From Methylocapsa aurea (GTDB lineage: Bacteria > Pseudomonadota > Alphaproteobacteria > Rhizobiales > Beijerinckiaceae), in assembly GCF_000746085.1 (NCBI RefSeq), contig NZ_JQKO01000008.1, forward strand, positions 163,046-227,045: 64,000 nucleotides of DNA. The letters run 5' to 3'. The position numbers and the translations under genes are program-made. The notes beneath the pieces are model-generated. The model was not told where the DNA came from and made no database searches. It saw only the letters and a program-made list of their open reading frames with translations. How positions within the stretch are numbered: the first letter of the stretch is position 1; every line of letters begins with the position of its first letter. Positions 7,211 through 39,240 of the stretch are shown in pieces.

Positions 7211-8077
7211 TCAATATTTGGCGACGACTGGAGCGGGCTGGTAGGTGTCGAACTTGTAGCTGAAGCCGACCTGGACCCGGTTCTCGACAAGATGACGATT
7301 GACGGTGCCGGTAAGGTAGTCTCCGCCGAAGGTCGGATAGGCATTGACCAAGTAGTTGTGGGTGCGACCGAAATCGGTATAGCGATATTCGGCCCGGACC
7401 GACCAATTGTTGGTGACGGCATATTCGATGCCGCCGCCGGCGGTCCAGCCGACGCGCGTCTGCGAGAAGCTGTCGTGACCGTAGATGCTGTTGAAATAGA
7501 ACAAGCCGCCGCCATAGGCGGTGGTCACATCGCTCTTGAACCCACCGAAGGCGACGCCGCCTGTCCCGTAAAGCAGGACGCGGTCGAAGGCGATGCCGAC
7601 CCGGCCGCGGATCGAACCCTGAACGCCAAGGGTCGTGTGGACGGTGGTGGGAATATAGTCCAGATAGTAGTTGCTGTAGGGCGAGAGATTGACGGTCTTG
7701 CTCAGGCTGGAGCCGTCGACGTCGCCTTCGAGACCGACCACCCACTGGTTGAACTGCAGATTGTACCCGACATGCGCGCCGCCGATCACGCCATTGGCGT
7801 TGCTGCCGACGCGAAAGCTGTCGTAGATGAAGCCGGGGCCGCCGCCGAGTTGACCAAAGTTAACGCACGTAGCGCAAAATCCATTGGCATACAAAGTGGT
7901 GTTGTTGTTGGTCCAGGCGTAACCGATCTGGCCGCCGAGATAGATGCCGGTCCAGGTGAAGATCGGCGCGGGCGGCAGATAGACTGGCGGCGGAGCGCGG
8001 GAGGGGAGATCAGCCGCGAGGGCCGATCCGGCGAGAGCGACGGCACCAACCGACGCCATGAGAAGTTTGCGTAACAT
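7211..8077 (-). CDS. Omp25/31-type outer-membrane beta-barrel protein, paralogue 1
   Basis: Predicted eight-stranded outer-membrane barrel of the Omp25/Omp31 surface-antigen family. The start at 8077 has AAGGAG 8 nt before it and gives 288 residues. The signal peptide MLRKLLMASVGAVALAGSALA is followed by the family hallmark AADLPSRAPPP and FTWTGIYLGGQIGYAW. The barrel ends with the typical C-terminal strand VGFSYKF and terminal aromatic residue (VAKY). The sequence after the first strand, rich in Asn/Gly, differs completely from the two neighbouring paralogues. It has its own terminator and upstream element, so it is probably transcribed alone. Confidence 0.92.
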   Translation of the reverse strand: MLRKLLMASVGAVALAGSALAADLPSRAPPPVYLPPAPIFTWTGIYLGGQIGYAWTNNNTTLYANGFCATCVNFGQLGGGPGFIYDSFRVGSNANGVIGGAHVGYNLQFNQWVVGLEGDVDGSSLSKTVNLSPYSNYYLDYIPTTVHTTLGVQGSIRGRVGIAFDRVLLYGTGGVAFGGFKSDVTTAYGGGLFYFNSIYGHDSFSQTRVGWTAGGGIEYAVTNNWSVRAEYRYTDFGRTHNYLVNAYPTFGGDYLTGTVNRHLVENRVQVGFSYKFDTYQPAPVVAKY

Positions 8078-8188
8078 AGGCTTTCTCCTTTCCGGAAGCT
8101 GAAGCATCTTCAAGTTACCCCGTTTGGACCGGCCTGAGGAATGATATTGGGAGAAAGGTGGCAGCGGGAAGCCGCAATTCCGATCGCC

Positions 8189-8206
8189 GTGACCCTAATA
8201 CAACAC
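8189..8206 (-). promoter_or_regulatory. Conserved upstream element of porin paralogue 1
   Basis: On the minus strand this reads GTGTTGTATTAGGGTCAC, 112 nt before the start codon at 8077. The matching element lies at the same distance (111-112 nt) before paralogues 2 and 3. TTGTAT with AATTGC 18 nt further on could be -35/-10 boxes; the GGTCAC core may be an operator. Confidence 0.5.
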
Positions 8207-8287
8207 AGGGGGCAGACGATTAGCCGAAACGCATGGCCGGATCCAAATAACTCAGCGAAATTTCTTAACTCTTTTTTCGACTTTACA

Positions 8288-8312
8288 AGAACCCGGCCCT
8301 TGGCCGGGTTCT
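8288..8312 (-). terminator. Terminator of porin paralogue 2
   Basis: AGAACCCGGCC and GGCCGGGTTCT form an 11-bp stem with a 3-nt loop, 44 nt downstream of the gene ending at 8356. The T-run on the minus strand is weak (TTGTAAAG). Confidence 0.6.
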
Positions 8313-8355
8313 ATTTTGCGGCAAGCCGTCAAAATTGAAATCAAGAGGCTTGAAA

Positions 8356-9213
8356 TCAATATTTGGCGACGACCGGAGCGGGGTGGTAGGTGTCGAACTT
8401 GTAGCTGAACCCGACCTGGACCCGGTTTTCGGCAAGGTGATGGCGGACGTTGGAATAAATCGCTTCGCCGAAGAAGGGGGTGTAGGAATTGACGAGGTAG
8501 TTGGTGGTGCGGCCGAAATCGGTATAGCGATATTCCGCCCGAATCGACCAGTTGTTGGTCACGGCGTACTCGATGCCGCCGCCGGCGGTCCAGCCGACGC
8601 GGGTTGACGAGAAGCTGTCGTGGCCGCCGAAGTAATTCGGGTAGAGGATGTTGCCGCCGTAGGTGGTGTTGAGGCTGGTGTTGAACCCACCGAAGGCGAC
8701 GCCGCCTGTCCCGTAAAGCAGGACGCGGTCGAAGGCGATGCCGATGCGGCCGCGGATCGAACCCTGAACGCCCAGGCTCGTGTGGACGGATGTGGGGATG
8801 AAGTCCGCATAATAGGTGCTGTAGGGCGAGAAGTTGACGGTCTTGCTCAGGCTGGAGCCGTCGACGTCGCCTTCGAGACCCAACACCCACTGGTTGATCT
8901 GCAGATTGTACCCGACATGAGCGCCGCCGATCACGCCGCTGGCGTTCTGGTTGTGGTGATAGGCGTCGGCAAAATAGACCGGGCCTAGCTGCGCGATTGG
9001 GTCGAGATAGTAAAAGCCGTTGTGGTTGAAGTCGCTGTTGTGGTTCGTCCAACCGTAGCCAATCTGGCCGCCGAGATAGACGCCGGTCCAGGTGAAGATC
9101 GGCGCGGGCGGCAGATAGACTGGCGGCGGGGCGCGCGAGGGAAGATCAGCCGCGAGGGCCGATCCGGCGAGAGCGACGGCGCCAACCGACGCCATGAGAA
9201 GTTTACGAAGCAT
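8356..9213 (-). CDS. Omp25/31-type outer-membrane beta-barrel protein, paralogue 2
   Basis: 285-residue barrel protein, nearly identical to paralogue 1 in signal peptide, N-terminal strand, central segment (GSIRGRVGIAFDRVLLYGTGG) and C-terminal strand. They differ in the first exposed loop (here WTNHNSDFNHNGFYYLDP and so on) and in a later loop (NTTYGGNILYPNYFGG). The start at 9213 is preceded by the same AAGGAGAAAGCCT leader. The long stretches of shared DNA and conserved flanks point to a recent tandem duplication followed by divergence confined to loops. Confidence 0.92.
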   Translation of the reverse strand: MLRKLLMASVGAVALAGSALAADLPSRAPPPVYLPPAPIFTWTGVYLGGQIGYGWTNHNSDFNHNGFYYLDPIAQLGPVYFADAYHHNQNASGVIGGAHVGYNLQINQWVLGLEGDVDGSSLSKTVNFSPYSTYYADFIPTSVHTSLGVQGSIRGRIGIAFDRVLLYGTGGVAFGGFNTSLNTTYGGNILYPNYFGGHDSFSSTRVGWTAGGGIEYAVTNNWSIRAEYRYTDFGRTTNYLVNSYTPFFGEAIYSNVRHHLAENRVQVGFSYKFDTYHPAPVVAKY

Positions 9214-9323
9214 AGGCTTTCTCCTTTCCGGAAGCTGAAGCATCTGCAAATTACCCGGTTTGGATCGGCCTACAACTGATATTGGGCGAAAGTTGGCCCT
9301 GGAATGGCGCAATTCCGGCCTCT

Positions 9324-9341
9324 GTGACCTTGATACAACAC
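9324..9341 (-). promoter_or_regulatory. Conserved upstream element of porin paralogue 2
   Basis: Minus-strand reading GTGTTGTATCAAGGTCAC, 111 nt before the start at 9213. It matches the elements of paralogues 1 and 3 at the TTGYAT and GGTCAC blocks. Confidence 0.5.
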
Positions 9342-9424
9342 GAAGGGATTGGAGATTGGCCGAGGCGCCTGCGCGAGCGCCAACAAACCCTGCCAAATGC
9401 TTAACCAATCCGCTAGGACAACAA

Positions 9425-9453
9425 AAAACCCGGCCTTTTGAAGCCGGGTTTTC
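9425..9453 (-). terminator. Terminator of porin paralogue 3 (bidirectional)
   Basis: AAACCCGGC and GCCGGGTTT pair around an 8-nt loop, with TTTTTTGT following on the minus strand and TTCTTTG on the plus strand. It lies 39 nt beyond the stop of the gene ending at 9492. Confidence 0.8.
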
Positions 9454-9491
9454 TTTGTGTTTCGCTGAGCGAGTCGCTCGATCGCTTGATT

Positions 9492-10298
9492 TCAGTATTT
9501 GGCGACGACCGGAGCGGGAGCGAAAGAATCAAACTTGTAGCTGAACCCGATCTGAACCTGATTTTGGGTATAATGATGCTTCACGTTCGCGCCGGGGAAC
9601 AACAGGCTTGGGGCCGGGAACGAATTGATGAGATAATCCGTGTAGCGCCCAAAATCGGAATAGCGATATTCCGCCTGGATCGACCAATTGTTGGTGATGG
9701 CGTATTCGATGCCGCCGCCGACCGTCCAGCCGGCGCGCGTTCTCGAAAGGTTGTCATAGCCGAGGAACGTCGAATAGCTGGTTTCAAGGCCGGTGAAGGC
9801 GGCGCCGCCGGTGGCGAATAACAGGACCCGATCGAAGGCGATGCCGGCGCGCAGGCGGATCGATCCTTGAACGTTCGCGCGGGTCGTGAATGTGGAGCCG
9901 GTCAAGAAGCCAGCGCCGAAATTCTGGCTGATGCTTGTCCCGTTGACATCGCCTTCGAGGCCAGCGACCCATTGGCCGATCTGCAGATTGTAGCCAAGAT
10001 GCGCGCCGCCGATCACGCCGCCTGGGTTGAAGTTGATCGGAAAGCTCGTGGCCGGAATGCCGGGGATCACGCCTTGGTCGGGAATGATGATATCGGGCGT
10101 GCCGGGGTCAAACAATGTGGCGCTATCGCGGCCCCAGCCGTAACCGACCTGACCACCGATGTAGAGGCCGGTCCAGGTGAAAATCGGCGCGGGCGGCAGA
10201 TAGGGCGGCGGCGGGGCGCGGGAGGGGAGATCGGCCGCGACAGCGGATCCAGCGAGGGCAACGGCGCCAGCCGATGCCAAGAGAACTTTGCGTAACAT
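9492..10298 (-). CDS. Omp25/31-type outer-membrane beta-barrel protein, paralogue 3
   Basis: 268-residue barrel protein. The start at 10298 is chosen by alignment to paralogues 1 and 2 (MLRKVLLASAGAVALAGSAVAADLPSRAPPP). The reading frame is open much further upstream, but that part lacks any family similarity. Framework strands are conserved (FTWTGLYIGGQVGYGW, IRLRAGIAFDRVLLFATGGAAF, VGGGIEYAITNNWSIQAEYRYSDFG) and the loops are unique (GTPDIIIPDQGVIPGIP). More diverged from paralogues 1 and 2 than they are from each other, so the duplication is older. Confidence 0.92.
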   Translation of the reverse strand: MLRKVLLASAGAVALAGSAVAADLPSRAPPPPYLPPAPIFTWTGLYIGGQVGYGWGRDSATLFDPGTPDIIIPDQGVIPGIPATSFPINFNPGGVIGGAHLGYNLQIGQWVAGLEGDVNGTSISQNFGAGFLTGSTFTTRANVQGSIRLRAGIAFDRVLLFATGGAAFTGLETSYSTFLGYDNLSRTRAGWTVGGGIEYAITNNWSIQAEYRYSDFGRYTDYLINSFPAPSLLFPGANVKHHYTQNQVQIGFSYKFDSFAPAPVVAKY

Positions 10299-10409
10299 GG
10301 GCTGTCTCCTTCTTTGAAACCTCAAGCTCCGGCAAATTACGCCGTTTGGGCTTGTCAACAACCCTTGCGGGTGCAAAAGGGGCCCCGGATGCGCGCTATT
10401 TGGAAGGCT

Positions 10410-10427
10410 GTGACCAGAATGCAACGT
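10410..10427 (-). promoter_or_regulatory. Conserved upstream element of porin paralogue 3
   Basis: Minus-strand reading ACGTTGCATTCTGGTCAC, 112 nt before the start at 10298. It keeps TTGYAT and GGTCACAG although most surrounding sequence has diverged, which argues for function. Confidence 0.5.
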
Positions 10428-10557
10428 TACGGATGTTGCGGAGCCCGCGAATCGCCGCCTTGCGCCGCGGTTGAGCAAATTGCCGCGGTTGGGAGGCGCG
10501 GCTCTCATGGGGTGAGGATCCGATAAGCCAGAGCTTTGCCCCTCGATCGCTTCCGGC

Positions 10558-10590
10558 AAAAAAAAAGAACCCGGCCGAAAATGGCCGGGT
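10558..10590 (-). terminator. Terminator of porin paralogue 4
   Basis: ACCCGGCC and GGCCGGGT form the stem. On the minus strand it is followed by TCTTTTTTTTT, a strong T-run. It lies about 105 nt after the stop at 10695. Confidence 0.8.
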
Positions 10591-10694
10591 CTGGGAATCA
10601 TTGTGGAAGGGTGGAAGCGGCTGTCTCGGGGGCCGCCTTGAAAAAAGGCGCGTCAATTGCCTCCGGGCCCGCCAGGCCTATAAAGGCCCACTGC

Positions 10695-11417
10695 CTAATA
10701 TCTTGCCGTCGCCGGCCCGGCAAACGGATCGAACTTGTAGCTGAAGCCGGCCCGGATCGCGTTCTCGGTCTCCTTATGGCGCACAATGGCGCCGGGTGCA
10801 GAATTATAGGGATAGTCCTGGACGGAGCCATAATCGGTGTAGCGATATTCGGCCCGGACCGACCAATTGCCGGTGAGGGCATATTCGATTCCGCCGCCGA
10901 CGGTCCAGCCGGCGCGGGTTTTCGATAGCGTGTCGTAGCCGAGGAAGCTCGCATAAGTGTTCTTGAGGCTGGCGAATGCGCCGCCGGCCGTCGCGTAAAT
11001 CAGGGCGCGGTCCAAAGCCACGCCGACACGGGCGCGGATCGACCCCTGCACCGGGATTTCCGTTCCGTAGGCGATGAAATTCGAGTTGAAAGTTTTCTTG
11101 TAGCCCGAACCCTCGACGTCGCCTTCCAGCCCGACGACGATCTGGTTGAATTGGGCGTTATAGCCAACGTGGGCGCCGCCAATGATCCCCGACGGACCGA
11201 AATGGCTGGAGTAAATGGCGAACGGACTGGCGACGGTGTATTCGTCATTGCCCCACGCATAGCCGAGCTGACCGCCGAGGTAGAGGCCGGACCAGGTGAA
11301 AAGCGGAACCGGCGGCGTATAGACGGGCGGCGCGTCGCGGTACGGAAGGTCGGCCGCGAGGGCCGGCCCGGCGATAGCGGCGAGAGCGGTCGCCGCCAAA
11401 AGCAACCTTCGAATCAT
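10695..11417 (-). CDS. Omp25/31-type outer-membrane beta-barrel protein, paralogue 4
   Basis: 240-residue, most diverged member of the array. The signal peptide MIRRLLLAATALAAIAGPALA is followed by AADLPYRDAPPVY and FTWSGLYLGGQLGYAW, and the C-terminus VRAGFSYKF... TARY is typical of barrel proteins. AAAGGGGA precedes the ATG at 11417; a TTG six codons upstream is a weaker alternative. Shorter loops make it smaller than its neighbours. The upstream region does not show the element shared by the other three, so it may be regulated separately. Confidence 0.9.
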   Translation of the reverse strand: MIRRLLLAATALAAIAGPALAADLPYRDAPPVYTPPVPLFTWSGLYLGGQLGYAWGNDEYTVASPFAIYSSHFGPSGIIGGAHVGYNAQFNQIVVGLEGDVEGSGYKKTFNSNFIAYGTEIPVQGSIRARVGVALDRALIYATAGGAFASLKNTYASFLGYDTLSKTRAGWTVGGGIEYALTGNWSVRAEYRYTDYGSVQDYPYNSAPGAIVRHKETENAIRAGFSYKFDPFAGPATARY

Positions 11418-11818
11418 TGATTTGTCCCCTTTCAAAGGTTCTCAGTTGTCAGAAGAAACTGTTCCAATCCAGCGAGGCGCGACCTGGAAAGGGAGTAACT
11501 TGGACAAATTGTTCTTGTGTCCGAGCCAGTGTAGCAATCCTTCTGCGCTGCAATTCCAAGGTTTGAGCCGCAGCGGGATCGATCGATGCAACATTTAGAT
11601 TTCATTACGTAAATATGATGGAAACTCCTTACCAAACTGTCTCGAAAGTTGCTTACCGAAATTTCTTGAAATTGAACTTTGTCGATGGATCTGTTAGCAG
11701 TTGCGGCGGGATGGCGCCAAGCAAGCGTCACGCGGCCGGAAGCATGGTCTGGTGGGATAGGATTGGGGGTAGGCCGGGCGCCGGCCTCGGGCAAAGCGGA
11801 GGTCGGTTGGCGTTAGAA
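11418..11818. other. Non-coding region between porin array and repeat
   Basis: Contains the presumed promoter region of porin paralogue 4. A 120-codon frame on the minus strand (11432-11794) has no signal peptide, ribosome site or recognisable motif and is not called. Nothing else stands out. Confidence 0.4.
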
Positions 11819-12429: not shown

Positions 12430-15400
12430 ATGTTCAATGAGCGGACCATCCGCCGCGCGCTCATCGTCGTCGCGTTGACGGGGCTCGTCGTCGGGCTCGC
12501 CGCCGCTTTCGCGGGACGCGGCGGGCTCGCGCGCTGGATTTGGGCCGCCGGCTCCATTCCCGTGGCCGGGGCGCTGGCCGTCTCGATCGCGCGCGACGTT
12601 TGGGCCGGCAGGGTTGGCGTCGACGCGGTCGCGCTCTTGTCGATGGCGGCCGCTTTGGCGCTCGGCGAAACGCTGGCTGGAGCGGTTGTCGCCGTTATGT
12701 ATGCCGGCGGCGCCGCGCTGGAGGATTTCGCGGTCGGACGCGCCGAGCGGGATCTGAAATCGCTCGTCGATCGCGCGCCCCGCATTGCGCATCGGCGGAT
12801 CGACGGATCGATCGAAGATGCGCCGGTCGAGCAGGTTTCGATCGGAGACGCCCTTCTGGTCCGGGCCGGCGAGGTGGTTCCCGTTGATGGCCTGATCGCC
12901 AGCCCCAGCGCCTCTCTCGACGAATCGGCGGTGACGGGAGAGCCGATCCCGGTCGCGCGGCGAGTTGGGGAGGCGGCGCGCAGCGGCGCGATCAATGCGG
13001 GCGAGACATTCGAGATGCGGGCGTTGGCGAGCGCTGGCGAAAGCACCTATGCCGGGATCGTCAAAATGGTGGCGGCGGCGCAGACCGCCAAGGCCCCCTT
13101 CATTCGGATGGCGGATCGCTATGCGCTGCTGCTTTTGCCCGTGACGCTTCTAACGGCGGGCGCGGCCTGGGCGCTTTCGCATGACCCTATTCGAGGGCTG
13201 GCGGTGCTTGTGGCGGCGACGCCTTGTCCGCTGATCCTGGCGGCGCCGGTGGCGTTCATCGCTGGCGCCGCCCAGGCCGCCCAGCGCGGCATCTTGATCA
13301 AAGGCGGCGGCCCGCTCGAGGCGCTCGCCCGCGCCCATACCGTGATGTTCGATAAGACCGGGACGCTCACCGTTGGCGGAGCCCGGCTGGTCGCCGTCGA
13401 GACCGCGCCAGGCCAAGACCCCAATGAGGCGCTGCGACTTGCAGCCTCGCTCGAGCAAGCCTCGCAGCATGTCGTGGCGGGCGCCATCGTCGCCGCCGCG
13501 CGTGGAAAGGGCTTGGCCCTGGAGATCCCGGAAATGGTGCGCGAGACAATGGGATCCGGACTCGAAGGCGTCGTCGGCGGGCGCAAGGTCCGGATCGGTT
13601 CGCATCAGCTTGTCCATGGCGGCGCGCAGCCGGAGGAGTGGGCGGGCCGGGCGCTCCGGCGGGCGTCCTGGCGCTCCGCCCTCAGCGTCTTCGTTTCCGT
13701 GGAGGGGCGCATAATCGGCGCCTTGCTGCTCGCGGACGAACTGCGGCGCGAGACGCCGCGGGCTGTCCAGGCGCTGCGGGCCGCCGGCGTGGCGCGGATC
13801 GTCATGGTGACGGGCGATCGGGCCGACGCGGCCGAAACGATCGGCGCCGCGCTCGATCTCGATGAAGTGCTCGCCGACCGCGTCCCGTCCGATAAGGTCG
13901 AAGCCGTCGCCATCGAGCAGCGGCGCAACCCGACGCTCATGGTCGGCGATGGCATCAATGACGCTCCAGCCCTGGCGGCGGCCGATGTCGGCATCGCCAT
14001 GGGCGCGCGCGGCGCGAGCGCATCGTCCGAGGCGGCCGATGTGGTGATCCTCGTCGATCGGATCGATCGCGTTTCGGATGCGGTCAAAATCGCGCGCCGC
14101 ACGCGCGCCATCGCCCTGCAGAGCATTGTCGTGGGGATGGGGCTTTCCGGAATCGCCATGGCCGCCGCCGCGGCGGGTTGGCTCACTCCGGTCGCCGGCG
14201 CCCTGATCCAGGAGGGCATAGACGTCGCCGTTATCCTCAATGCGTTGCGGGCGCTGAGCCCGCGCCGGGCCTCGCACCGGCCAGCGATGCCGGCCGCCGC
14301 CGCCGGGGTTCTTCGCGCCGATCACGAAAGGCTCGACGCAAGTCTCGACCGTCTGCGCCAGATCGCGGACGCCTTGGATGACGCCGAAGCCGAGGCCGCC
14401 GTGGCCTATATTGTCGAGGCCAATCGCATTATCGGAACGCAAATCGTCGAACACGAACGCGACGACGAAAGCTCTGTCTATCCCCGGCTCGCGGGCTTCC
14501 TCGCGGACGACCACGGCCTATCCGCCATGAGCCGCGCGCATCGCGAGATCCTTCACCTCGCCAAGCTCCTGACGCGGCTGACGGATGGGCTCCGCCCACA
14601 CGAAACGGACCGATACCTGATCCGGGATGCGCAGCGCATCGTCGAATCGATCGAATCCCTCGTGCGCATGCATAATGCGCAGGAAGAGGACATCTACCAA
14701 CATGCGATCGCCGATTGGGACGGCGAGGCGCAATCGGTCGAGGGCGCGCAACCCGGAGCGATCAGCGCTGCCGAGCCGCAAGTCGCCGCGAAAACCAGCC
14801 GGGGCTGGCGAACAGCGGTCGCCGCGCTCGCCCTGCTGGTCGCTGGAGGCGGGGCGCTCTATTGGTCTTTGCGCTACGACCACGGCGCTCGCTATATTAC
14901 GCAGAAGCTCGATCGGGGGCCGGTGGCGCCCACTGTCCTTGCGAGCGGCGCGGTCCAGCCGATTATCGCGGCGGAAGTCACATCCCATGTGTCCGGAGCG
15001 ATCGAGGTTCTCTCCTGCGACGCCGGCGCAAAGGTAAGAGCGGGCCAGCTTTGCGCCAAGATCGATCCGCGCCCCTATCAGGATTCCGTCGAGCGGGCCA
15101 AGGTCGATCTCGCCACCGCCAAGGCGCGGCTGGAAATCGACAAGGCCGCTCTCGTTCGGGCAAAAGCGGCCCTCGACCCTAACGAGGCCAAGGCAAAGCG
15201 CCGCACCGCTTCGCGAAAGGCGTTGGAGGCTTCGAGGAAAGCGTATGAGCAGGCCTTGGCGCGGACAAGCCTCGGCGAGGCGTCGATCGCAAGGAGTCAA
15301 GCAGCTCTGGAGGCGTCCCAGATCGACCTTGCGCATACTGATATTATCTCGCCCATCGATGGGACGGTGGTGTCTCGCGCCGCCGAAATCGGTCAGATGG

Positions 15401-15975
15401 TCGAGGCGAACGCGCGGGCCCCCCTCTTTGCGATCGCAGCGAATTTCGCCATTATGCAGGTCGGCGCCAAAGTTGGCGAAACCGACATCGGCAAGATCAA
15501 GCTTGGCGACAAGGCCCGATTCGCCATCCAGTCGTTGCCGGACCATTTTTTCGCCGGAGAGGTGACGCAAATCCGTCCCTCGGCGCCGACGGCTGAGTCG
15601 GGCGCGGCCTATGATGTCGTCATAGCCGCGCCCAATCCGGATCTCTTGCTTGAACCTGGGATGATGGCGGCAATCACAATTGTGGGCGAGCGGCGCGACA
15701 ACGTCCTTCGCGCGCCGGATCGGGCGCTGCGCTTCAAGCCCGAGGATGCGGCGCTTCCGAACGGCGCCGTTGGGCAAGCGCCGCCCCCGGAGGGCTGGTC
15801 GCGCGTCTGGATCCTGCGCGATGGAAAGGCGATGCCGGTTTCGGTCCAACTTGGCTTAAGCGATGGCGTCTACGCGGAAATCGTCAAGGGAGACGTGCGG
15901 CCGGGTGACCAGGCGATCCTGGAAATTGTCGATGAGAGGCCCGCGCCATCAGGCGGGGCTCCGTCGAATAGATAG
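12430..15975 (+). CDS. P1B-5-type metal ATPase fused to a hemerythrin-like domain and a periplasmic membrane-fusion (HlyD/MacA-type) domain
   Basis: A single 1181-codon ORF with three modules. Residues 1-610 are a heavy-metal P-type ATPase: TGE (169-171), the metal-site motif TPC (264-266), DKTGTLT with Asp308, TGD (461-463), GDGIND (506-511) and the terminal helix QEGIDVAVILNALR. There is no N-terminal metal-binding domain. Residues about 628-760 are a hemerythrin-like four-helix bundle with likely ligands His632, His675, His704, His748 and Glu752. Residues 796-815 form a membrane helix, followed by a periplasmic adaptor: beta-sandwich/lipoyl halves at about 838-880 and 972-1000, a coiled coil at about 885-970, then a beta-barrel. 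TPC plus hemerythrin defines P1B-5 pumps linked to Fe/Ni export. The C-terminal adaptor fusion is the oddity; no ABC or RND partner gene lies nearby. Confidence 0.9.
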   Translation: MFNERTIRRALIVVALTGLVVGLAAAFAGRGGLARWIWAAGSIPVAGALAVSIARDVWAGRVGVDAVALLSMAAALALGETLAGAVVAVMYAGGAALEDFAVGRAERDLKSLVDRAPRIAHRRIDGSIEDAPVEQVSIGDALLVRAGEVVPVDGLIASPSASLDESAVTGEPIPVARRVGEAARSGAINAGETFEMRALASAGESTYAGIVKMVAAAQTAKAPFIRMADRYALLLLPVTLLTAGAAWALSHDPIRGLAVLVAATPCPLILAAPVAFIAGAAQAAQRGILIKGGGPLEALARAHTVMFDKTGTLTVGGARLVAVETAPGQDPNEALRLAASLEQASQHVVAGAIVAAARGKGLALEIPEMVRETMGSGLEGVVGGRKVRIGSHQLVHGGAQPEEWAGRALRRASWRSALSVFVSVEGRIIGALLLADELRRETPRAVQALRAAGVARIVMVTGDRADAAETIGAALDLDEVLADRVPSDKVEAVAIEQRRNPTLMVGDGINDAPALAAADVGIAMGARGASASSEAADVVILVDRIDRVSDAVKIARRTRAIALQSIVVGMGLSGIAMAAAAAGWLTPVAGALIQEGIDVAVILNALRALSPRRASHRPAMPAAAAGVLRADHERLDASLDRLRQIADALDDAEAEAAVAYIVEANRIIGTQIVEHERDDESSVYPRLAGFLADDHGLSAMSRAHREILHLAKLLTRLTDGLRPHETDRYLIRDAQRIVESIESLVRMHNAQEEDIYQHAIADWDGEAQSVEGAQPGAISAAEPQVAAKTSRGWRTAVAALALLVAGGGALYWSLRYDHGARYITQKLDRGPVAPTVLASGAVQPIIAAEVTSHVSGAIEVLSCDAGAKVRAGQLCAKIDPRPYQDSVERAKVDLATAKARLEIDKAALVRAKAALDPNEAKAKRRTASRKALEASRKAYEQALARTSLGEASIARSQAALEASQIDLAHTDIISPIDGTVVSRAAEIGQMVEANARAPLFAIAANFAIMQVGAKVGETDIGKIKLGDKARFAIQSLPDHFFAGEVTQIRPSAPTAESGAAYDVVIAAPNPDLLLEPGMMAAITIVGERRDNVLRAPDRALRFKPEDAALPNGAVGQAPPPEGWSRVWILRDGKAMPVSVQLGLSDGVYAEIVKGDVRPGDQAILEIVDERPAPSGGAPSNR

Positions 15976-16354: not shown

Positions 16355-16567
16355 ATGACTAAGGGAACCGTTAAGTGGTTCAATTTCCAGAAGGGCTTCG
16401 GCTTCATAGAGCCGGATGACGGCGGCAGCGATGCTTTCGTCCATATCAGCGCCGTGGAGCGCGCCGGCCTCAGCGACTTGTGCGAAGGTCAGAAGGTGGG
16501 CTTTGAGCTCGTCGCTGACCGGAAGAGCGGCAAGATGTCGGCCGATAGCCTCAAGGTTCTGGACTGA
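16355..16567 (+). CDS. cspA: Cold-shock protein (CspA family)
   Basis: 70-residue OB-fold RNA chaperone. The start at 16355 is preferred over an upstream in-frame ATG because AAAGGGG lies 5 nt before it and the protein then begins MTKGTVKWFN as in the family. RNP1 (KGFGFIEPDDG) and RNP2 (DAFVHISAVE) are intact. It binds single-stranded RNA/DNA and melts structure at low temperature. It is a lone gene followed by dispersed repeats. Confidence 0.96.
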   Translation: MTKGTVKWFNFQKGFGFIEPDDGGSDAFVHISAVERAGLSDLCEGQKVGFELVADRKSGKMSADSLKVLD

Positions 16568-16730: not shown

Positions 16731-16732
16731 CA

Positions 16733-16834
16733 GAGCATTTTTGAGTGAAGCGGACGCCAGTTCGCGTTAAGAAAATGCGATGAAACAAAGAGCTATAGCG
16801 GCTTTCTGATTCCGTGGAATCCGCAAGCGCTTTA
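16733..16834 (+). repeat. Palindromic repeat, family C copy 2
   Basis: GAGCATTTTTGAGTGAAG... through GATTCCGTGGAATC to AAGCGCTTTA. It follows family B copy 1 directly. It aligns in reverse with 19153-19255 and 34189-34276. Confidence 0.8.
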
Positions 16835-18879: not shown

Positions 18880-19152
18880 GTGCTGATCCCAAATGTTAGA
18901 AAAACCGGCGGATGGAAAGGTCCATTCGCGAGGCCGCCCGCGGCGCCTGATCGACCTTAAGGATTGTCGCGCATTGAAGCGGCCCGCGCAAAGAGCGCTC
19001 CGCGACGGCGAGGCCCACGGTGCGATCAAGCCCTTGGGGCATGATTGCCGCTGTTGATGCCATTCATCGGTGGCGGCGGCAAGTCCCCGCGCCGCGTTTG
19101 ATCCAGGATCGAGCCGCCGGGAGAAATATTGCCGGCAGCGAGCGTCAGCGCT

Positions 19153-19255
19153 AAAGCGCTTTCAGCTTCGGCGGAATCAGAAAGCAGCTTTAGGTCCTTG
19201 TTTTGTCGCATTTTGTTAACGCGAACCGGCTTCCACTTCGCTCGAAAATGCTCTA
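19153..19255 (-). repeat. Palindromic repeat, family C copy 3
   Basis: AAAGCGCTTTC... GGAATCAGAAAGC... TTAGGTCCTTGTTTTGTCGCATTTTGTTAACGCGAACC... CACTTCGCTCGAAAATGCTCTA, given here in pieces. Same element as 34189-34276, and the reverse complement of 16733-16834. It occupies the gap between divergent ilvD and the asparaginase gene, 54 nt before the latter's start. Confidence 0.8.
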
Positions 19256-34190: not shown

Positions 34191-34276
34191 AGCGCTTTTA
34201 AAAAGCAGCTCTAGGTCTTTGTTTCATCGCATTTTCTTAACGCGAACCCGCATCTGCTTCGCTCGAAAATGCTCTA
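34189..34276 (-). repeat. Palindromic repeat, family C copy 4
   Basis: AGAGCGCTTTTAAAAAGCAGCTCTAGGTCTTTG... TTTCATCGCATTTTCTTAACGCG... CTTCGCTCGAAAATGCTCTA, given in pieces. The first bases overlap the TAG stop codon of hisS. Nearly the same as 19153-19255. Confidence 0.8.
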
Positions 34277-36931: not shown

Positions 36932-39037
36932 CTATTCCGCCGCCTGCGCTCTGGCCTCGACCGGGGTGAAGATGCCGGCTCCGGCCGGCTGCATTTCAAG
37001 ATGGCGTTTGTGGAAATGCAGCAGGCTCGATCGATGCCCGATAGAGATGATGGTCGCGCCGGGCAGTTTCTTGAATAGGGTCTCGTAGATCTCGGCTTCC
37101 ATGGATTCGTCCATGGCGGCCGTCGCCTCATCGAGGAAGAGCCAGTCGGGCTTGGCGAGAAGCGCACGGGCGATCGCCAGCCGCTGCTGTTCGCCGCCGG
37201 AGAGACGCTGCGACCAAATATCCTCGACATGGAGTTGTCCGATCAGATCGGGGAGTTTTGCCGCCAGAAGCGCCGCGCGGACCGCCGCTTCGTCAAATTG
37301 TTCGGGCGGCGCCGGATAGGTTACGGCGGCCATGAGGCTGCCGATCGGGACATAGGGCTTTTGCGGCAGAAGCATCACCCGCGCGCCGGCCGGTAGATCG
37401 ATGGCGCCCTCGCCAAAGGGCCAAATGCCAGAGATGGCTCGAAACAAAGTGGATTTGCCGGACCCCGAAGGCCCGGTGAGCAGAACCGGCGCATTGGCGT
37501 CAAGTTTAACGTTCGCGTCCTTGATGATCTCACGTCCGTCAGGCAGGCGCAGCGTCAGCTCCTCGAGCTGGAGGTCCTCCGTCCTGCTTTTCTCTTGTCG
37601 GGGCGCGATGCCCAAGGCGATCGCCCGCTCGATCGAGGCGTCGAAGGAGATCAAGCGGTCGAGCACGGCTTTGAACTCGGCGAGCGAGACGTAATAGGTG
37701 ATGAAGAAGGTCAAGGCGCTGTCGACGGTGCCGAAGGCGCGCCCCGTTTGCGACATGACGCCGAGCTGGATCTTGCCCGCGAAGTAAAAGGGCGCCGTGA
37801 CGATATAAGGAATGATGGTGCTGAGCTGCCCGTAGGAGGCGGTGAAGGCGATCAGCTTCTTGCGGCAGTCGACAATCTCGAAATAGTTCTTGATGATCGC
37901 GGTAAAGCGCGTCCTGAGCGAGGCCTTTTCGGCGGGTTCGCCGGAGAGCAACGCCACTTGTTCGCCATATTCGCGCAGTCTTGCGAGCGAAAAGCGGAAA
38001 TCGGCCTCATAGCGCTGGCGCGCGAAGGACAGGTCGGCGAGCGGACGCCCGATGAGATGGGTCACGAGCGTGCCGATTCCCGCGTAGATCAGAGCCGCCC
38101 AGAACAGAAAACCGGGTATGGCGATCGTCGTGTGAGGGAGAGTGAGGCCCGCGGAGAGATCCCACAGAACAATCGCGAAGGAGACCAGCGAGCTCATGGT
38201 GGAAATCAACAGGATTGAGAAGGAGTAGATGCCGTAGCCGGTCTGACCGCCGTCGATGAAGCGGTTGACGTCCTCGGAAATGCGCTGATCCGGGTTGTCG
38301 GCGCCAGCGCCCGTCAGCGAGATGCGATAATGGGTGTGCGCGTCCAGCCAGCGCCCGACGTAGCTTTCAGTGAGCCAGCGGCGCCAGCGAATGATCAGGG
38401 TCGAGGTAATGATGAACTCGACGACGGCGGTCGCGATAAAGACGAAGACCCAGGGAAAGAAGACGGTGAGCAGCTGCGCCCAGAAGGCTGTCTCGTCCTT
38501 GTTTTGGATCGCGTTAAAAAAGTCCCGGTTGAAGAACGACAGCCGCACTTGCACGCCGACCTGGACCTGATTGATGACCACCAACACAATAACCATTGTG
38601 ATGGCCACCCATCGCTCAGGGGCGCCAAAGGAGGGAAACGGCCAGATGCGGGCCCTGGTCGGGTCGCTGGTATTGAAATAGCGGTCGGCGATGTAGGTCA
38701 TCGACCGCACTACGGGGATGAAGGAGATCGCGTAAACGAGAATGGCGAAGATCGCGACGGTCAGCGGCAGGCTGACCGGCAAGGCGTAATCCTCGAGCGA
38801 AGCCGGCCAGAACCCGACCTGAGCGACCAGGAAGATAGCGCCGAAGATGACGGTCTCGGTCGCGAATATGGCGGCGAAGATCCGCAGGAAACTCGAAATC
38901 GCCGGGGCTTTGTAGGTCGTGAAGGCGCAGAGCAGGCCGGTTCCGGCGAGCAATTGGACGGTATTTTCTCCGTTCGTCAGCCCAATAATGCCGGCGGCGA
39001 TTGAGAAAACAGCGACGATGGCGGCGAGAAACTGCAT
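36932..39037 (-). CDS. SbmA/BacA-type ABC transporter (membrane and ATPase domains fused)
   Basis: 701-residue half-transporter of the ABC_membrane_2/ABCD group. The start at 39037 has AAGG 8 nt upstream; a TTG 21 codons earlier is less likely. Helices near residues 1-90 precede an SbmA/BacA-like membrane domain (about 140-460, RLSFFNRDFFNAIQNKD, EDVNRFIDGGQTG). The ATPase domain shows Walker A GPSGSGKST, signature LSGGEQQR, Walker B WLFLDEATAAMD and switch His in SIGHR. Relatives import peptides or affect very-long-chain fatty acids and vitamin B12; the substrate here is open. It converges with the CU044_2847 gene, 22 nt apart. Confidence 0.9.
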   Translation of the reverse strand: MQFLAAIVAVFSIAAGIIGLTNGENTVQLLAGTGLLCAFTTYKAPAISSFLRIFAAIFATETVIFGAIFLVAQVGFWPASLEDYALPVSLPLTVAIFAILVYAISFIPVVRSMTYIADRYFNTSDPTRARIWPFPSFGAPERWVAITMVIVLVVINQVQVGVQVRLSFFNRDFFNAIQNKDETAFWAQLLTVFFPWVFVFIATAVVEFIITSTLIIRWRRWLTESYVGRWLDAHTHYRISLTGAGADNPDQRISEDVNRFIDGGQTGYGIYSFSILLISTMSSLVSFAIVLWDLSAGLTLPHTTIAIPGFLFWAALIYAGIGTLVTHLIGRPLADLSFARQRYEADFRFSLARLREYGEQVALLSGEPAEKASLRTRFTAIIKNYFEIVDCRKKLIAFTASYGQLSTIIPYIVTAPFYFAGKIQLGVMSQTGRAFGTVDSALTFFITYYVSLAEFKAVLDRLISFDASIERAIALGIAPRQEKSRTEDLQLEELTLRLPDGREIIKDANVKLDANAPVLLTGPSGSGKSTLFRAISGIWPFGEGAIDLPAGARVMLLPQKPYVPIGSLMAAVTYPAPPEQFDEAAVRAALLAAKLPDLIGQLHVEDIWSQRLSGGEQQRLAIARALLAKPDWLFLDEATAAMDESMEAEIYETLFKKLPGATIISIGHRSSLLHFHKRHLEMQPAGAGIFTPVEARAQAAE

Positions 39038-39240
39038 GATTTGCCTTGGGTGTCGGGGGCGAACGAGCGGTCCGATAGAAGGGTTTAACAGAACGGTCAA
39101 CGGACGCTGCAGCTAAACACTGCTAGCATCGACAAGACAGAGCTTGCAGCCTTGCCCAGGGCTCGAAAGCCTTGAAACATGTCGGAATCGAAAAAGTCGA
39201 GCGCCTTTTTTTAAGGGACGACTTTAACCAGCGTCTTCTA

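Follow-up and report, generated by a model that had tools for sequence, protein, structure and literature searches.

A 64,000-nucleotide stretch of Methylocapsa aurea contig NZ_JQKO01000008.1, hereafter the window, carries on its forward strand a single open frame for a 1181-residue protein (12430-15975; ATG at 12430 with purine-rich GAGAGGGGGGGACGCC immediately 5′ of it, stop at 15973-15975, no internal stop) that joins a P1B-type ATPase, a hemerythrin-like domain, an extra membrane helix and an adaptor tail of the MacA family. The initial annotation of this DNA had proposed an uninterrupted 1181-codon fusion of three modules, which the frame and the Pfam and NCBIfam matches confirm, with the TPC and DKTGTLT motifs exactly at the residues given there. 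From comparison of its sequence relatives, we tentatively read the tail as a periplasmic anchor module of pMMO methanotrophs rather than a link to TolC. The features of the gene are as follows:

12430-15975, +, fusion gene (P1B-type ATPase, hemerythrin domain, membrane helix and MacA-like adaptor tail); frame, Pfam, NCBIfam
12622-14250, +, P1B ATPase core, residues 65-607; TIGR01525, 505 bits
13219-13227, +, TPC motif, residues 264-266; position, invariant in a 63-row alignment
13351-13371, +, DKTGTLT phosphorylation motif, residues 308-314; position
14308-14697, +, hemerythrin-like domain, residues 627-756 (H632, H675, H704, E706, H748, E753); PF01814, 39.9 bits, four modelled helices
14815-14871, +, extra membrane helix, residues 796-814; hydropathy, low-confidence modelled helix 791-815
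14920-15921, +, MacA-like adaptor tail, residues 831-1164; TIGR01730, 140 bits, 3fpp_A fold match
15016-15054, +, cysteine pair C863/C875 in the first lipoyl half; both cysteines in 153/153 distinct fused tails
15070-15333, +, coiled-coil hairpin, residues 881-968; modelled helices 881-923 and 929-968
15184-15225, +, basic hairpin tip EAKAKRRTASRKAL, residues 919-932, net charge +5, with P917, K921 and S928 at the RLS positions; sequence

Pfam matches run in the order E1-E2_ATPase (116-286), Hydrolase (304-519), Hemerythrin (627-756), HlyD_D23 (848-1080) and HlyD_3 (972-1077). Among NCBIfam models, the heavy-metal P-type ATPase covers residues 65-607 at 505 bits and the RND_mfp adaptor residues 831-1164 at 140 bits (cut-off 94.9), while the MacA model matches 793-1163 at 137 bits, under its cut-off of 342. 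An AlphaFold model of the whole protein as a single chain is weak (mean pLDDT 65, pTM 0.36); it contains a four-helix bundle at 622-761 (pLDDT blocks 58-92), a long hairpin at 881-923/929-968 (blocks 75-93), a low-confidence helix at 791-815 (pLDDT 36-56) and a C-terminal part (1087-1181) below pLDDT 50. Its best PDB fold matches are P1B ATPases, followed by E. coli MacA (3fpp_A, TM 0.81 by target length, 267 columns), and the MacA-type set of membrane helix, barrel-sandwich, coiled-coil hairpin, beta-barrel and membrane-proximal domain is present. Hydropathy at 796-814, the family models and the 3fpp_A match thus bear out the earlier call of a new membrane helix followed by a complete MacA-like adaptor. 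We take the P1B ATPase core to end on the cytosolic side, by family topology, and the extra helix therefore places the adaptor tail in the periplasm, in support of the earlier assignment.

The pump itself is P1B-5-like, an identity supported by TPC, the helix at the core end and the hemerythrin domain. T264, P265 and C266 lie in the membrane metal-binding helix and are invariant across 63 aligned proteins; near the core end, QEGIDVAVILNALR at 594-607 fits the QE...D...NALR helix, presumably a P1B-5 motif, with Q594, E595, D598 and N604-R607 invariant in the same alignment. The C-terminal hemerythrin domain scores 39.9 bits with PF01814 against a cut-off of 25.3. Compared with the P1B-5 hemerythrin ligand pattern given in PMC9388753 (H-HxxxE-HxE-HxxxxD), the positions here (H632; H675xxxD679 then E680; H704xE706; H748xxxxE753) match in their histidines, with two carboxylates changed or displaced. 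The known P1B-5 ATPases described in that source (cellulolyticus P1B-5 and S. meliloti Nia) share with the fusion the TPC motif, the P1B core and a C-terminal four-helix His/Glu domain, but end with the hemerythrin-like domain in the scheme given there, whereas the fusion adds the membrane helix and the MacA-like adaptor. Relatives with the P1B core and hemerythrin domain and no tail also exist at approximately 765-800 amino acids, such as P0121 of Methylocella tundrae (787 amino acids). By its family, the ATPase would probably export a transition metal such as Fe2+ or Ni2+ from the cytosol, and the hemerythrin domain may perhaps control it.

Proteins that carry the tail

Residues 600-1181, used as query, matched 2308 proteins at E ≤ 0.001, and we considered the 120 best. 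Many of these 120 have the same domain order at approximately 1060-1196 amino acids (including proteins of Methylocapsa polymorpha, Methylosinus sporium and Methylocystis bryophila), and the same architecture comes from other assemblies as P0003-P0006 and P0009 (M. polymorpha), among further proteins, and at locus L094 (Methylocapsa acidiphila B2). The initial annotation had called for such a database comparison, noting that its proposal would fall if the adaptor were always separate elsewhere and this strain an assembly error; recurrence of the fusion in assemblies of other genomes rules out an assembly error or frameshift. Some database entries are named after the pump and the adaptor together (one reads 'heavy metal translocating P-type ATPase/RND family efflux transporter MFP subunit'), so annotation pipelines have already met the fusion. 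M. polymorpha has, besides the full-length P0009, a second, shortened P1B-hemerythrin-tail protein (P0002, 683 amino acids) that starts inside the MVGDGINDAPA segment.

The same best-120 set also includes the tail on proteins resembling P3A proton ATPases, P2 calcium ATPases and F1 alpha subunits. For a closer view, 60 loci were picked from matches in genomes of the same family, with long frames preferred; the tail is fused to a head in 54 and no fusion is present in 6. The seven kinds of head are P1B-5 ATPase with hemerythrin domain (11 loci), P2 ATPase (25), P3A ATPase (3), alternate F1Fo ATPase alpha subunit (2), CyoD (9), a four-helix membrane protein (2) and a soluble AHSA1 protein (2). 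Representatives score above the family cut-offs of TIGR02847 (CyoD), TIGR03324 (alternate F1 alpha) and TIGR01647 (proton ATPase), and others match PF08327 (AHSA1) and PF00689/PF00690 (P2 type); the four-helix head had no Pfam match. CyoD-tail genes come after the oxidase genes of cyo operons (CyoB identified by Pfam at L175, the CyoA and CyoC assignments being read off the sequence), and the F1 alpha-tail gene of L208 lies between b-like and gamma-like genes (read from sequence), neighbours that put these heads in working positions. Among the sequences read, proteins with heads of the P2, F1 alpha, four-helix or AHSA1 kind have a hydrophobic stretch ahead of the tail; such a stretch is missing from the CyoD-tail of L100, and we take the CyoD end to be periplasmic in any case. 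The presence of this tail on heads that do not transport metal rules out a metal-specific system. To our knowledge, no described system places one periplasmic module on three P-type ATPase classes, F1 alpha, a heme-copper oxidase subunit and a soluble domain.

The AHSA1 case is seen at L224:4347-5846 and L228:4094-5560 (genomes G459 and G414), where a membrane helix links a soluble AHSA1-type domain to this adaptor tail. The host genome has a second fused tail, 58% identical to the first, at the end of a 1317-residue P2 ATPase (P0051), whose start, judged by its length, lies 4 nt inside the end of an AI-2E-type permease gene. This permease is likewise separate, with its end overlapping the ATPase gene, at L171 and L181, while at L199:4617-9503 and L108:6089-10888 AI-2E-type permease, P2 ATPase and adaptor tail form a single frame of approximately 1600 codons.

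In line with the initial annotation, no described P-type ATPase with a covalently attached adaptor came to light; in the open-access literature we found no paper that reports a periplasmic adaptor fused to a P-type ATPase or to a subunit of an oxidase or ATP synthase. The fused dimeric adaptor DSY0927, as presented in PMC4446572 and PMC4338810, is similar in having an adaptor joined to a further domain in one chain, but it joins two adaptors, whereas here the adaptor's partner is an ion pump, a subunit of an oxidase or a soluble domain.

Two genomes record how the tail moves. In the single-contig genome G508, the P1B-tail (L180:5338-6499) and the P2-tail (L181:4946-6107) share 1162 bp at 98.2% identity, the last approximately 900 bp being identical. 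The block starts just ahead of the tail membrane helix and ends within the stop codon of the P2 gene, because of which the P1B copy reads 19 codons further; the transfer would have run from P2 to P1B. Genome G483 has two cyo operons (L174:4511-5878 and L175:4443-5807) that are 94% identical over 4.5 kb and have identical CyoD heads with tails at dS 0.5. Since a 98% identical block occurs on two pump genes and diverged tails occur on identical heads, the tail is, judging from these sequences, a cassette that moves between genes, and the G508 block clearly records the recent transfer of a protein domain from one pump gene to another in the same genome. In an 89-row tail tree, all standalone adaptors fall on one side of one branch (SH-aLRT 99) and 19 head changes are needed against a minimum of 7, compared with 17 changes and SH-aLRT 94 in a first tree; both trees leave out two of three standalone rows and most of the best-120 proteins. 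The dN/dS ratios are 0.29-0.68 for tails (11 pairs) and 0.09-0.28 for heads (10 pairs with head divergence), some pairs sharing a sequence; the tails are constrained yet evolve faster than the heads.

Tail features and distribution

The adaptor scan of named genomes yielded 80 loci. A macB gene adjoins 71 of 72 standalone adaptors (including L051, L061 and L082) versus 0 of 7 fused tails, one of which has only 682 nt of contig remaining; the P3A-tail frame of L034, interrupted by an N, was placed in neither class here but counted as fused in the tail comparison below. A TolC-family gene is present in 21 of the stretches that hold standalone adaptors. Two genomes that lack pmoA have a P3A ATPase gene immediately upstream of macA-macB (L042:7188-11143 and L066:7613-11119, with gaps of 293 and 54 nt), an arrangement that suggests a route to the first fusion. 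In the window, references for macB permeases, RND proteins and outer-membrane factors had no match in the 424 frames other than the fusion, no macB permease or MacB-like ATPase was found near 12430-15975, and the sole ABC match (36935-39112) is distant from the fusion gene. Three loci in the host genome contain both halves of a TolC-family protein, none on the contig of the fusion gene.

For the comparison of tails, 228 rows were reduced to 219 distinct sequences (153 fused and 66 standalone), after removal of tails with scores below 100 bits or with matches shorter than 200 residues. According to PMC3391258, the docking motif RLS (RxxxLxxxxxxS) makes contact with TolC, and its alteration impairs binding, with substitutions best tolerated at the serine; PMC4446572 adds that the motif is not strictly conserved even among functional adaptors. 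The window's tail does not match the motif, as two of its three residues are changed (P917, K921, S928). Limiting the test to 98-residue hairpins, which excludes 43 of the 153 fused and 16 of the 66 standalone sequences, the distinct standalone hairpins have the R in 50/50, the L in 50/50 and the exact motif in 42/50, compared with 82/110, 54/110 and 23/110 for fused hairpins. Mean net charge of the tip is +3.8 in fused versus 0 in standalone hairpins (standalone maximum +2), and the consensus of the fused tip is approximately KRRAISRK (86 distinct fused hairpins).

Hairpin length is 98 residues in 110 of 153 distinct fused tails. The cysteine pair is found in 153/153 distinct fused tails versus 61/66 standalone adaptors, a standalone frequency biased upward by the scan that supplied most of that set, whose pattern includes the second cysteine. 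The membrane-proximal end is present in 59/153 fused versus 62/64 standalone tails, although proteins of the best-120 list cut at contig ends may inflate the number of short tails; among the loci and the host's own proteins alone, 43 of 56 end short. Relative to MacA of MacAB-TolC, then, the tail has the same domain order, fold (3fpp_A), hairpin length and N-terminal membrane helix; unlike MacA, it is joined to an ATPase, lacks an adjoining MacB, has P-K-S in place of RLS, and bears a basic tip and a cysteine pair. The host's own MacA, on contig 1, does not have this pair.

Within the 298 sampled genomes of the family, pmoA occurs in 40, limited to 3 of 43 genera. Fused tails were verified in 30 genomes, all within the three pmoA genera (29 pmoA-positive and one negative), or in 29 of 40 pmoA-positive versus 1 of 258 pmoA-negative genomes among the matches listed, where not every pmoA-negative adaptor match was opened. 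The host genome itself carries pmoA. For the window's genus, a fused tail was verified in 7 of the 10 genomes with pmoA and none was found in the 5 pmoA-negative genomes, of which G444 has a standalone match with macB, G331 a weak match that was left unopened, and three no match. The genomes of five ATPase-tail loci (L032, L038, L094, L105 and L108, the last from Hyphomicrobiales) all have pmoA. In a phylum sample, 52 of 398 genomes had a match, with no such fusion in any listed frame of more than 600 codons outside the host genome. Likewise, none of 20 long-frame or high-ranking matches from the family, order and phylum searches (L231-L250) matches a reference head, and macB adjoins the adaptor in each (in L234 it is cut off by the contig start). 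As background, PMC7660913 describes pMMO as a membrane-bound copper enzyme, intracytoplasmic membrane arrangement as a classical trait of proteobacterial methanotrophs, and Methylocella as being without pMMO.

Possible roles of the tail

We favor, with some reserve, the periplasmic anchor, which accounts for the range of heads, the lack of macB beside fused tails, the remodelled tip and the near-confinement to pMMO methanotrophs. In this reading, copies of the tail would probably still contact one another as in MacA, and the basic tip would attach to an anionic surface on the other side of the periplasm, either peptidoglycan or, in the lumen of intracytoplasmic membranes, the opposing bilayer, and so set the positions of pumps and oxidase. 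A likely origin would be a P3A ATPase gene just upstream of macA-macB, with later spread of the tail to other genes by recombination. We regard as doubtful, but worth stating, a wider version in which pMMO methanotrophs have made a drug-efflux adaptor into a general periplasmic stalk: one mobile C-terminal cassette, shuffled by recombination and with its docking tip rebuilt as a basic foot, would tie pumps for metal, calcium and protons, as well as an alternate ATP synthase and a terminal oxidase, to a facing surface. It might thereby keep the stacks of intracytoplasmic membranes aligned and arrange the complexes that conserve energy around methane oxidation. If the tail does anchor energy-transducing proteins, it offers a handle on methanotroph membrane layout and a case of an efflux adaptor re-used as a scaffold.

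Several observations weigh against the anchor. Anchoring, oligomerization and localization are all predictions from sequence, and confidence in the structural model is too low (pTM 0.36) for statements on domain packing. Eleven of 40 pmoA-positive genomes have no verified fused tail, G519 has three fused tails yet neither a pmoA nor a pmoB match, and the counts span three genera and few lineages, which are not phylogenetically independent. A tail without RLS might still dock on TolC, because the motif is not absolute in working adaptors (PMC4446572), and it is still exact in 23 of 110 fused hairpins. The basic tip could equally bind another protein, and two distinct tails on four-helix heads have a tip charge of only +1. 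In addition, the window's own tail retains the membrane-proximal end, the count of short tails is subject to the inflation given above, and the tails evolve faster than their heads.

The initial annotation had instead suggested metal being handed from the pump straight to an outer-membrane channel, with six fused chains forming, in the version considered here, a MacA-like ring on a TolC-family channel that passes the P1B-pumped metal outside. In its favor, the adaptor is complete, having both lipoyl halves, the hairpin, the barrel and, in the case of this protein, also the membrane-proximal end; the MacA fold match (3fpp_A) and the three TolC-family loci in the genome (albeit none on this contig) speak for it too, and if the tail docks on TolC, P-type pumps would become inner-membrane partners of trans-envelope machines. 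We nonetheless consider it unlikely: a conduit predicts a retained RLS and a channel partner, and the proposal is weakened by P-K-S at the RLS positions (the exact motif persisting in only 23/110 distinct fused hairpins), by the lack of any match in the window to a macB permease, RND protein or outer-membrane factor, and by 90 of 153 distinct fused tails stopping before the membrane-proximal end. It also leaves non-transporter heads unexplained, and a closed export channel would have little purpose where the tail is carried by CyoD, F1 alpha, a proton pump or AHSA1. We give little credence to periplasmic metal handling, in which the tail's cysteine pair would take the pump's metal and pass it to periplasmic methane-oxidation enzymes. 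The families of the P1B-5 and P2 heads transport metals or Ca2+, and pMMO is a copper enzyme (PMC7660913), but CyoD, F1 alpha and AHSA1 are not metal pumps. Universality of the pair among the 153 distinct fused tails fits this idea, but 61 of 66 standalone adaptors, nearly all beside macB, have it too (in a set biased toward one of the cysteines), and the cysteines replace lipoyl-half residues and would suit a disulfide.

Two explanations remain. A module for oligomerization only, gathering pumps or oxidases in rings or patches and having no partner for its tip, is consistent with the hexameric state of MacA reported in PMC3391258 and with the kept hairpin length (98 residues in 110/153 fused tails); a conserved basic tip that is absent from standalone adaptors suggests selection on the tip, and we judge this explanation quite unlikely. 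Alternatively, the tail might be a largely passive C-terminal cassette that recombines, spreads by gene conversion and is tolerated since it does little. The 98% identical block on two pump genes, ending in a stop codon, the identical CyoD heads with tails at dS 0.5 in G483, the many short ends and the faster evolution than heads are what such a cassette would leave, but dN/dS is below 0.7 in 11 of 11 pairs, and the cysteine pair in 153/153 tails, the common hairpin length, the basic tip and the near-restriction to pmoA genera make passivity very unlikely.

Surroundings of the fusion gene

The fusion gene stands alone, with opposite-strand outer-membrane-protein-like genes upstream and a small cold-shock-like gene downstream at 16355-16567 (names read from sequence). 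On the minus strand at 7211-11435, the frame list has four adjoining, paralogue-like genes for outer-membrane beta-barrel-like proteins with related starts (AADLP[SY]R..PP). A repeat of approximately 60-100 bp, 77-87% alike between copies, occurs three times in the window (16732-16834, 19152-19255 and 34215-34276) and once on contig 12 (L027:14910-15009).

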